Positions 27,284-31,306 of a DNA stretch of 45,492 bases are shown piece by piece. A program made the translations under genes and the position numbers. Below the pieces are notes generated by a model. The model was not told the DNA's origin, ran no database searches, and saw only the letters and a list, made by a program, of their open reading frames with translations. This DNA comes from a bacterium. Lineage in GTDB: Bacteria > Patescibacteriota > Patescibacteriia > UBA2591 > MWDC01. How positions within the stretch are numbered: position 1 is the first letter of the stretch; every line of letters begins with the position of its first letter. The stretch lies in assembly GCA_021158435.1 (NCBI GenBank), contig JAGGUQ010000010.1, positions 1 through 45,492 of the forward strand. Reading direction: 5' to 3'.

Positions 27284-27303
27284 TTTTCCACAGTTTATTC
27301 ACA
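27284..27303 (+). promoter_or_regulatory. DnaA-box pair upstream of dnaA (candidate oriC or autoregulatory site)
   Basis: TTTTCCACA (27284-27292) and TTATTCACA (27295-27303), next to an AT-rich tract. Confidence 0.6.
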
Positions 27304-27321
27304 AGTTATCTTCTTTTTAAA

Positions 27322-27349
27322 TTGGCTTTTATTTTTTTTTGCTTATACT
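27322..27349 (+). promoter_or_regulatory. dnaA promoter
   Basis: TTGGCT, 16-nt spacer, TATACT. Confidence 0.5.
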
Positions 27350-27387
27350 AAAATAATATTTTATTTATACTCAGAGCAATTCAAAGT

Positions 27388-28779
27388 ATGGCCAAACAGG
27401 ATAAAAAGGAAAATTTAGATAAATATGAACTCTGGCAAAGCGTTCTTGGCGAGCTAGAGCTCCTAATTTCTCCAGCAAATTTTAAAACTTGGTTTTCCAA
27501 TACTTTTATTTCACGAATTGAAGATGATGGAAGGACAGCAGTTATAGCTGTCCCTAATATTTTTACTCAAAATTGGCTTAGTCAGAAGTACCATAAAGAC
27601 ATTTTAAGGGCTCTGGCAAACATTACAGACAACAAGATAGAAAGGATTGTTTATACTATTGAAAGCAATTTTCAGGCAGCTAAGCAAATGGAAGATATTT
27701 CTCGTTTAGAAAAGATGGTTGAAAAAAAGAGCAACAAAGAAGAAGAATTTAATAAATATGGCCTTAATTCTCGATATACTTTTGACACTTTTGTTGTTGG
27801 TAAAGGAAATGAATTGGCTTATGCAGCAAGCAAAGCAGTTGTTTCTCAGCCAGGAAGAAAATATAATCCTTTGTTTATTTATGGAGGAGTAGGACTTGGC
27901 AAAACTCATTTACTTCAAGCAATTGGTCATGCTTTTCTTTCTAAGAATAAAAAAGCAAAAATTCTTTATGTTAATGCTGAAGTTTTTACCAATGAATTTG
28001 TTGAAAGCATTCGTAATGGTAAAAGTAATCATTTTAAGGAAAAATACAGGAATTTAGATTTATTATTGGTAGATGATGTTCAGTTTATGGCTGGAAAAGA
28101 AAGAACAGAAGAGGAATTCTTTCATACTTTTGATAGCTTGCATCAAGAAAAAAAACAGATAGTTATTACTTCAGATAGGCCACCAAAATCTTTAGCAGCT
28201 TTAGAAAAAAGAATAGTTTCTCGTTTTGAGTGGGGTTTAATTTGTGATATTGCTCCACCAGATTTGGAGACACGTCAGGCAATCTTAAAAGCAAAAGCAA
28301 AAGAAAGAGGATATAAACTGGATGAAGAGGTGATTAATTATTTGGCTTCTCATATTCAAAGTAATGTTCGAGAATTAGAAGGCGCTTTGAATAAAATTTT
28401 TGCCTGGCATGAATTGTATAACGAACCAATTGATAGAAATGTGGCAGAAAAAATTATTAAAAGTATGGTTGCCCAGACCCCAAGAAAGTTTGTTCCTTGG
28501 GAAAAGGTACTAAAAGAAGTTGCTGACTTTTATAATATAAAACCAGAAGAAATACAAGGTATTTCTCGAAAAAGAGAATTAGTAGTTCCTCGTCAAGTTA
28601 TTATGTATTTACTAAGAGAGGATTTAGAAATGTCTTTTCCGGCAATAGGTAAAAAATTGGGGAACAGAGACCATTCTACAGCAATGCATGGTTGGGAAAA
28701 AGTCAAAAAAGAAGTAGAAAATGACGGGAGAATAAAACAAGAAATAGATTTAATTCGACAAAGAATTTATAATGATTAA
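27388..28779 (+). CDS. dnaA: chromosomal replication initiator DnaA
   Basis: NPLFIYGGVGLGKTHLLQAIGH, LLLVDDVQFMAGKERTEEEFFHTFD, GNRDHSTAMHGWEKV. Confidence 0.97.
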   Translation: MAKQDKKENLDKYELWQSVLGELELLISPANFKTWFSNTFISRIEDDGRTAVIAVPNIFTQNWLSQKYHKDILRALANITDNKIERIVYTIESNFQAAKQMEDISRLEKMVEKKSNKEEEFNKYGLNSRYTFDTFVVGKGNELAYAASKAVVSQPGRKYNPLFIYGGVGLGKTHLLQAIGHAFLSKNKKAKILYVNAEVFTNEFVESIRNGKSNHFKEKYRNLDLLLVDDVQFMAGKERTEEEFFHTFDSLHQEKKQIVITSDRPPKSLAALEKRIVSRFEWGLICDIAPPDLETRQAILKAKAKERGYKLDEEVINYLASHIQSNVRELEGALNKIFAWHELYNEPIDRNVAEKIIKSMVAQTPRKFVPWEKVLKEVADFYNIKPEEIQGISRKRELVVPRQVIMYLLREDLEMSFPAIGKKLGNRDHSTAMHGWEKVKKEVENDGRIKQEIDLIRQRIYND

Positions 28780-28791
28780 TTGATAGTTTTT

Positions 28792-29631
28792 ATGGGGACT
28801 AAAATAAAAGTAAGGAAGGCAAATGGCAAATGGGAATCTTTTGATTTGAATAGGATAAAAAAGACTTGTTATAAAGCAGGTGTAAATAAGAAAGTTGCTG
28901 ATTCAATAGCAAAAAAAGTTAGCCAACAGGTTTATAATGGCATTTCAACAAGGAAAATTCTTAAAAAAATTCAGAATTATCTCAAGGAATATAAGTCCAG
29001 CGCTGCTGCTATTTATTCTTTAAAATCAGCTCTAATGAGGTTAGGTCCATCAGGCTTTGTATTTGAGGATTACATTACTCGATTGTTTAGAGCCTGTGGC
29101 TGGCAAGCAACAAATCCTGAACCTATTTTAGGTTTTTGTATTTCTCATGAAGTTGATATTATCCTTAATAAAAAAGGGGATTATTATCCTGTAGAATGTA
29201 AATATCATAATAAAAGGGGTATTTATTCTGGATCTAAAGATGTATTATATACTTGGGGAAGATTTTTAGATTTAAAAAAGGGAGCTCAATTTAAGAAAAA
29301 TTTTTTTAATTTTAAAAAACCTTTATTGGTTACTAATACCAAGTTTTCAGAGCAGGCAAAACAATTTGCGTGTTGTCAGCAGATTGAACTTTTAGGGTGG
29401 AATTATCCAAGAAAAAGTTTAAATTTTTATATTCATAAAACTAAACTTTGGCCAATAACTATAATCCCTAATTTAAATTATAATCTTCGTTTTAAGCTTT
29501 TTAGAGAAAAAATTATTTGTTTAGAGGATTTATTTTCTTATGATTTTAAGTTAAAATATACTGGGATATCTTATCAAACAATTAAGAGCCTTCAAAGGCA
29601 AGCAAATGAAATTTTAACTGCTTATAAATAA
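28792..29631 (+). CDS. ATP-cone domain fused to a restriction endonuclease-like (Mrr-type PD-(D/E)XK) domain
   Basis: N-term IKVRKANGKWESFDLNRIKKTCYKAGV...ISTRKILKKIQNYL (ATP-cone); GFVFEDYITRLFRACGW...HEVDIILNKKGDYYPVECKYHNK (D-x(n)-ExK). Confidence 0.8.
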   Translation: MGTKIKVRKANGKWESFDLNRIKKTCYKAGVNKKVADSIAKKVSQQVYNGISTRKILKKIQNYLKEYKSSAAAIYSLKSALMRLGPSGFVFEDYITRLFRACGWQATNPEPILGFCISHEVDIILNKKGDYYPVECKYHNKRGIYSGSKDVLYTWGRFLDLKKGAQFKKNFFNFKKPLLVTNTKFSEQAKQFACCQQIELLGWNYPRKSLNFYIHKTKLWPITIIPNLNYNLRFKLFREKIICLEDLFSYDFKLKYTGISYQTIKSLQRQANEILTAYK

Positions 29632-29635
29632 AATT

Positions 29636-31306
29636 ATGGTTTTAAGCAACAACCCTTTAACCCCAGAAGAAGTAGAAGAAAAACTTAGAGAGAAGTTAAA
29701 GAACTTAAGTTTAGAGAAAATAGAAGAGAATACTAAAAAGCTAGCCCAAAGTTCAGGAATGCCTTATATTCGGCTTAAGGGTTTTCCCATTACCCCTGAG
29801 GCATTAAGATTAATTAAAGAAGATAAAGCAAGAGCAATTAAGGCAGTTTGTTTTTATCAAAGTGAAACAGAAATAAAAATTGGGACCAGTTTAGTTAATA
29901 ACCCTGAATTAGATGAGTTACTTAAACAAATAGAACAAGATACAGGAAAAAAAGTTCAGGTTTTTTTAATTTCAGAGAATAGTTTGAAATATGCTTTAGA
30001 TTTATATAAAACATTACCCCATCTTTATCAACCTTCTAAAAAAGTTGAAATTACCAGCCAGGATTTAGAAAAATTTGAGAAAAAAATTAAGACATTTCGC
30101 GATTTAAATGAAGAAGTTCAAAAAGCAAGTACTTCAGATTTCATTTCCTTAATTTTAGCTTCAGCAATTAAATCTAGAGCATCTGATATTCATATTGAAG
30201 CAGAAGAAAAAGATATAAAAGTTCGCTTCAGAATTGATGGGGTATTAGTAGATGTGGCTAGTATTGATAAGAAATTTTGGAAACAAATTATTTCGAGGTT
30301 AAAACTTTTATCCTCATTAAAATTGAATGTTAGTGACGTTCCTCAAGATGGAAGGTTTAGCATTAAGCTGCCTTCTGATAAGCTGGATATTAGAATTTCT
30401 TGTTTGCCAACAGCTTTTGGAGAAAGTGTAGTTATGAGGCTTTTACGCTCTTCAGCTGTTGGTTTGAAATTTGAAGATTTAGGATTTTTTGGTGAGGCTT
30501 TTGAAATTTTGTCTAAAGAAATACAAAGGCCAAATGGAATGATTATAACCACTGGGCCGACTGGAAGTGGTAAAACAACTACTTTGTATGCAATTCTTAA
30601 TAAAATTAACCGGCCAGAGGTAAAAATTTTAACATTAGAAGATCCTATTGAGTACCAATTGCCAGGAATAAATCAAAGCCAAATTGATAAAAGTAAAGAT
30701 TATACATTTGCTAAAGGTTTGAGATCTCTTTTAAGGCAGGATCCTGATGTAATTATGGTAGGCGAGATAAGGGATTCAGAAACAGCAAAAATTGCTGTTC
30801 AAGCAGCTTTAACTGGACACTTAGTAATTTCAACTTTACACACCAATGATGCAGCTGGGGCTATTCCTCGTTTTCTTTCTTTAGGAGTTGAGCCATATCT
30901 TTTAGCTCCAGCTTTAAATGTAATTATTGCTCAGAGATTAGTAAGAAGAATTTGCCCTGAGTGTAAAAAAGAGGCTAAATTAGATGAAGAACTGCTTCAA
31001 AGAGTAAAAAAAGACTTATCACCAGTAGCTGAAAAGCAAGGTATATCTTTAGACAATTTAACCTTTTATAAAGGGGAAGGGTGTAGTAATTGTCAAGGTT
31101 TAGGTTATCGTGGAAGAATAGGTATTTATGAGGTTTTAAAAGTAGATTCGGAAATTGAAAAGCTAATAAGCAAAGGAGATGTTTCTGAGTATGATATAAA
31201 ACAAGCAGCAGACAAACAAGGAATGGTAACTATGGTCCAGGATGGTTTGATTAAAGCAGTTAAAGGCATTACTACTGTTGAGGAAGTTTATAGAGTTATT
31301 GAATAA
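29636..31306 (+). CDS. pilB: type IV pilus/type II secretion assembly ATPase PilB/GspE
   Basis: ASDIHIEAEEKDIKVRFRIDGVL, TTGPTGSGKTTTLYAIL, LRSLLRQDPDVIMVGEIRDSETAKIAVQAALTGHLVISTLHTND, zinc CPEC/CSNC. Confidence 0.95.
   Translation: MVLSNNPLTPEEVEEKLREKLKNLSLEKIEENTKKLAQSSGMPYIRLKGFPITPEALRLIKEDKARAIKAVCFYQSETEIKIGTSLVNNPELDELLKQIEQDTGKKVQVFLISENSLKYALDLYKTLPHLYQPSKKVEITSQDLEKFEKKIKTFRDLNEEVQKASTSDFISLILASAIKSRASDIHIEAEEKDIKVRFRIDGVLVDVASIDKKFWKQIISRLKLLSSLKLNVSDVPQDGRFSIKLPSDKLDIRISCLPTAFGESVVMRLLRSSAVGLKFEDLGFFGEAFEILSKEIQRPNGMIITTGPTGSGKTTTLYAILNKINRPEVKILTLEDPIEYQLPGINQSQIDKSKDYTFAKGLRSLLRQDPDVIMVGEIRDSETAKIAVQAALTGHLVISTLHTNDAAGAIPRFLSLGVEPYLLAPALNVIIAQRLVRRICPECKKEAKLDEELLQRVKKDLSPVAEKQGISLDNLTFYKGEGCSNCQGLGYRGRIGIYEVLKVDSEIEKLISKGDVSEYDIKQAADKQGMVTMVQDGLIKAVKGITTVEEVYRVIE

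Follow-up and report, generated by a model that had tools for sequence, protein, structure and literature searches.

A predicted ATP-cone/PD-(D/E)XK nuclease of the AF1548 family encoded in the dnaA-pilB interval of a bacterium with a tiny genome

Genes and features of the locus

The window analyzed here, i.e., the whole stretch of 45,492 nucleotides, belongs to a tiny-genome bacterium in which a gene encoding a protein with an ATP-cone and a nuclease domain is placed between dnaA and pilB (Table 1), with one copy of this gene in the genome. The position right after dnaA, reported in the preliminary description, was confirmed, with a gap of 12 nt between the dnaA stop and the start of the ORF; an in-frame TTG at 28780 could serve as an alternative start. 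The gene is probably co-transcribed with dnaA, and promoter and terminator scans of the locus gave nothing exceeding chance.

The exact sequence TTATNCACA occurs once in the window, at the DnaA-box-like site that precedes dnaA, and the same motif was found shortly upstream of dnaA in 7 of the 10 loci where the nuclease gene is linked to it. The GC skew is positive through the whole window, with no sign change at dnaA in the window scan. For this reason a replication origin at dnaA was rejected, and the box TTATTCACA would be better explained by dnaA autoregulation than by a visible origin.

Table 1. Coordinates of the features at the dnaA-pilB locus of the window.
Feature	Position	Strand	Basis or remark
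DnaA-box-like TTATTCACA	27295..27303	+	84 nt upstream of dnaA
dnaA	27388..28779	+	TIGR00362, 537 bits, cut-off 344
ATP-cone/AF1548-type nuclease protein, 279 aa + stop	28792..29631	+	ORF, Pfam, phmmer, AlphaFold2, Foldseek
ATP-cone domain, residues 5-75	28804..29016	+	PF03477; contact positions V7, K9, E15, F17, R21, T53
PD-(D/E)XK nuclease domain (Mrr_cat/AF1548 core), ~residues 87-206	29050..29409	+	PF04471; 1y88 by sequence and fold
Glu92 codon, first-helix glutamate	29065..29067	+	116/116
E120-x-D122, predicted catalytic Asp	29149..29157	+	both 116/116
E135-C-K137, predicted catalytic ExK	29194..29202	+	E and K 116/116
C-terminal AF1548-like_C helical domain	29452..29616	+	PF22357 sub-threshold here
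pilB-type T2SSE ATPase (MshEN + T2SSE), conserved downstream neighbor	29636..31306	+	domain matches, neighborhood comparison

Domain architecture and fold

The N-terminal part was matched by the ATP-cone model PF03477 (E 1.9e-7, 31.9 bits versus a cut-off of 25.8), and a genome search for ATP-cones recovered the same DNA span. Next to it lies a PD-(D/E)XK core recognized by Mrr_cat (PF04471, residues 87-201; E 1.1e-4, 22.8 bits versus a cut-off of 21.0), followed by a helical C-terminal domain in which the match to PF22357 (residues 221-275; E 6e-4, 20.3 bits) is below the cut-off of 23.9. The latter model passes its cut-off in archaeal and Bacteroidota relatives, reaching up to 78.5 bits, and matches 15/15 family members at E<=0.5; with HHH_5 matching weakly in 2/15 members, this C-terminal domain is probably helix-hairpin-helix-like.

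A phmmer search against the PDB gave 1y88 (AF1548) as top relative (E 3e-28, residues 90-274). AlphaFold2 produced a confident model of the protein, with a mean pLDDT of 91.9 and a pTM of 0.87, for which Foldseek placed the same PDB entry in first rank (E 1.1e-14), matching over the nuclease part. A second tier of Foldseek matches (probability near 1, E ~0.002-0.03) comprised the cones of NrdR and RNR for the N-terminal part, with an rmsd of ~2 Å over 84 columns, and the CARF nucleases Can2 and Cdn1 for the nuclease part. The preliminary description assigned an ATP-cone and an Mrr-like PD-(D/E)XK nuclease with a D...ExK motif; both assignments are upheld by Pfam matches above cut-off and by fold, and that of the nuclease also by its invariant residues.

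The Mrr_cat match and the published prediction of AF1548 as a restriction endonuclease (PMC1821046) may evoke an ordinary Mrr-like, modification-dependent restriction enzyme in which the N-terminal domain would be decorative. We give this reading little probability, as no Mrr N-terminal winged-helix domain was matched by Pfam at E<=1, the cone contact residues are kept, and the neighbors are of housekeeping type.

Conservation of catalytic and sensor residues

Residue conservation was counted in an alignment of 116 distinct full-length homologues, in all of which E120, D122, E135 and K137 are invariant. The predicted catalytic residues D122, E135 and K137 are equivalent to D38, E51 and K53 of AF1548, for which the same role was predicted (PMC1821046). 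A GP-G-FE stretch is likewise invariant; since the patterns used to retrieve 80 loci covered this stretch (LGPxGFxFE) or that of R157-D160, the invariance of E92 and GP-G-FE is partly by construction, whereas the catalytic D and ExK residues lie outside the search patterns. At the level of sequence, the PD-(D/E)XK domain is catalytically intact.

The nucleotide contacts of NrdR (V48, K50, E56, F58 and K62) were mapped onto the cone by their shared spacing, V-x-K-x-x-G-x-x-E-x-F-x-x-x-K. In NrdR, nucleotides are bound less well when V48, K50, E56 or K62 is mutated, and adenine is read by E56 and F58 (PMC9110341). All five NrdR-type contacts are present in the window protein (V7, K9, E15, F17 and R21), with R replacing the last K. 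Among the 116 homologues, V/I7 and T/S53 are found in 116, K/R21 in 114, G12 in 111, F/Y17 in 110 and K9 in 105, while E15 is kept in 75 and replaced by V in 27. Because both the nucleotide-binding and the catalytic residues are kept, we primarily infer a nuclease gated by ATP or dATP.

Distribution of the family

At least 503 related stretches were identified in species genomes, with Patescibacteria, archaea and Bacteroidota among their hosts; the best 80 of these came from Patescibacteria, Hadarchaea, Archaeoglobi, Altiarchaeota, DPANN archaea, Methanomassiliicoccales, Bacteroidota, Nitrospirota and others. Within the class of the window genome, a full-length copy, counted by bit score, was present in ~49 of 238 sampled members, many of the 86 matches in this sample being NrdR or RNR cones only. 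One copy (G091:C8:100498-101299) is in three pieces in different frames, likely a pseudogene or an assembly error. Plasmid records carry the gene in 2 of 72,556 cases, and a phage origin was rejected, as none of 50,697 phage records gave a match.

RefSeq names relatives 'ATP cone domain-containing protein'; hence the suspicion of the preliminary description that the fusion might already be catalogued proved right, and the protein belongs to a widespread family instead of being a one-off. Neither a report on the ATP-cone/nuclease fusion nor biochemistry of the family was found in the searchable literature.

The patchy presence of the gene, including losses inside the order of the window genome (hereafter, the order), indicates that it is dispensable. 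This patchiness is also what could be expected of a nucleotide-depletion alarm, in which ATP or dATP held by the cone would keep the nuclease off, and the drain of the pool by phage or stress would trigger DNA cutting and a growth stop; such a protein would resemble Gabija GajA or CARF nucleases in mode of action while belonging to neither. The fold kinship with the CARF-type Can2 and Cdn1 and the weak PADLOC matches to CARF_PDDEXK and the Zorya Mrr-like nuclease, in up to 5/15 members, point in the same direction. However, the window protein has no PADLOC match, defense models match very few of 106 neighboring proteins (one protein for each listed model, mostly helicase-type), and a stable dnaA-pilB block houses the gene in the order, and we regard an alarm nuclease as rather unlikely. 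A defense island was rejected, the PADLOC matches among 15 homologues and 106 neighbors being only scattered.

Linkage to dnaA inside and outside the order

The gene is carried by 15 of the 26 genomes of the order, and lies directly after dnaA in 10 of them (G000, G001, G005, G006, G009, G011, G012, G015, G019 and G021), which represent seven families. It is followed by pilB in nine of these, including G021, in which a contig break interrupts the gene and pilB was counted across it; in G011 the contig stops soon past the gene and no pilB is visible. The gaps between dnaA and the gene are mostly of 1-41 nt or a short overlap, with exceptions of 187 (G005) and 541 (G009). In the five remaining carriers (G002, G003, G013, G014 and G018) the gene is elsewhere and dnaA adjoins pilB, one small frame separating the two in G018.

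Recurring in so many genomes and families, the adjacency is not due to chance. The linked genomes are scattered on the DnaA tree (five changes), so the arrangement looks ancestral to the order, with several losses. In a quick gene tree nine linked rows formed one group (SH-aLRT 94), whereas in a careful tree the linked rows did not (two changes), 76% of the bootstrap trees joining them; a single origin of the dnaA-linked genes is likely.

Outside the order, the gene was adjacent to dnaA in 0 of 22 genomes with both positions listed, the two being on different contigs in 21 and 210 kb apart in one. Similarly, among the best 80 of at least 503 loci, examined with flanks of up to 5 kb, dnaA appeared only at two members of the order (L024 and L025). 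The dnaA linkage that the preliminary description proposed to look for in homologues therefore holds for two thirds of the carriers within the order and is not conserved across the family. Furthermore, in a large part of the order dnaA neighbors the pilB-type ATPase gene whether or not the nuclease gene lies between them (window 27388-31306 and L118-L139), and the adjacency may thus reflect a stable block instead of a shared task. With this pair holding without the gene, no skew switch, and differing neighbors elsewhere, the suggested involvement in replication initiation lacks support. A replication-coupled checkpoint within the order, by which a protein of the dnaA operon would read the dATP/ATP ratio and cut or nick DNA (e.g., stalled forks or over-initiated origins) in response to an unbalanced pool, has in our view only a slight chance of being correct; such a protein would constitute a DNA-level counterpart of the role that the missing NrdR plays at the level of RNR genes.

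NrdR and RNR context

No match to NrdR (TIGR00244, Zn-ribbon plus ATP-cone) was obtained in the window genome, whose sole other ATP-cone belongs to a class III RNR (class read from sequence). NrdR is absent from 17/17 sampled members of the order and present in 167/221 other class members, its absence in the order probably being one old loss. These observations would suit a non-cutting, DNA-binding regulator that replaces NrdR and tunes the RNR genes according to the dATP/ATP ratio. We consider such a stand-in very improbable, given that the catalytic residues are invariant, that 5/17 sampled order members are without both the gene and NrdR, and that both occur together in 26/37 genomes elsewhere in the class; on account of this coexistence, a general mutual exclusion was rejected.

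Gene neighborhoods in other lineages

In Bacteroidota, a beta-CASP/RMMBL metallo-nuclease is encoded directly downstream of the gene in 17 loci (L036, L045, L055-L058, L061, L065, L067, L068, L071, L075, L076, L083, L095, L096 and L099), and is a possible partner of the Bacteroidota protein. In Paceibacteria, the gene often comes after mnmA and mltG, and a RecB/Cas4-like PD-(D/E)XK nuclease is often encoded just downstream (L050, L051, L054, L074, L089, L092, L093 and L097), with a uracil-DNA glycosylase near it at four of these loci (L050, L051, L074 and L092). The gene has AlkD as a neighbor at L011/L013 and L062, and an 8-oxoguanine glycosylase at L034. Genes of RNA metabolism and translation are among the neighbors as well (mnmA, alaS, beta-CASP); AlkD, mnmA, mltG and alaS were recognized by eye alone. 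As a raw recurrence, the DNA-repair neighbors in separate lineages lean toward DNA maintenance.

The beta-CASP/RMMBL genes of Bacteroidota and the preceding mnmA and mltG of Paceibacteria would also be in line with an RNA-processing nuclease, in which the AF1548 domain cuts RNA alongside RNA enzymes and is tuned by ATP. Nevertheless, the fold and the nearest named families (Mrr, Hjc and 1y88) correspond to DNA enzymes or predicted ones, DNA-glycosylases are among the neighbors, and the tail is possibly of the HhH type, and we deem this function unlikely.

Proposed function

Our preferred reading, held tentatively although it may well be correct, is that of a housekeeping nuclease encoded on the chromosome and belonging to the AF1548 family, with an activity set by the adenine nucleotide pool and a role in DNA maintenance or repair. 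The domains and fold, the invariant catalytic and largely kept cone residues, the fold kinship with the ligand-switched nucleases Can2 and Cdn1, the lack of phage matches, the rarity on plasmids, the recurrence of repair genes as neighbors and the dnaA linkage across seven families are in favor of it; the RNA and translation neighbors, the E15 to V replacement and the patchy presence count against it. As judged from the kept contact residues, the N-terminal cone would bind ATP or dATP, and, by analogy with NrdR and RNR, binding would alter oligomerization or move the cone, which would in turn switch the C-terminal PD-(D/E)XK domain. The switch could run either way, with ATP turning it on and dATP off, or the reverse, while the small helical C-terminal domain would probably guide the nuclease to DNA. 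Its likeliest job would be to cut unusual DNA whenever the state of the nucleotide pools indicates trouble or rest. Through the probable co-transcription, the amount of nuclease may follow dnaA expression in the order, without action at the origin being required.

Comparison with known systems

AF1548 of Archaeoglobus fulgidus (1y88, PF22357) shares with the window protein the core and the C-terminal domain, aligned end to end, and the same D-ExK triad; unlike the window protein, its crystallized chain has neither the ATP-cone nor the first-helix Glu. The 1y88 chain starts with V-A-R-L-L, at the position of residue 91 in a full-length relative from Archaeoglobus. In a single-contig Archaeoglobus genome of 2,178,400 bases, which we take to be that of A. 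fulgidus, the first part of the cone is in another frame than the remainder (L169/L172; G250:C1, ~1,394,300-1,395,087), and in other Archaeoglobus genomes the encoded protein is full-length. Judging from these reading frames, the annotated and crystallized AF1548 is a C-terminal fragment of a gene frameshifted within the ATP-cone, by mutation or sequencing error, and the published structure is thereby without the sensor. The only solved structure of the family being a sensor-less fragment, its key property has gone unseen.

The RefSeq relatives encoded on plasmids of Pontibacter actiniarum and Criblamydia have the same architecture by alignment (33% identity across 92-98% of the query), and differ from the window protein in replicons and hosts. 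NrdR and RNR have the cone fold and the contact positions in common with it, but in the window protein neither the Zn-ribbon nor the RNR core is present, and its cone is joined to a nuclease. Mrr restriction enzymes have a winged-helix N-terminus where this protein has the ATP-cone. The CARF-PD-(D/E)XK nucleases Card1, Can2 and Cdn1 work alike in joining a ligand-sensing domain to the same nuclease class, Can2 and Cdn1 being switched by a bound nucleotide ligand; here, however, the sensor is an ATP-cone, with no CARF domain matched by Pfam or PADLOC and no CRISPR context seen. The switching of nucleases by a bound second messenger is well known, and a nuclease switched by the ordinary pool of ATP or dATP through an RNR-type sensor would, if true, join DNA cutting to dNTP supply.
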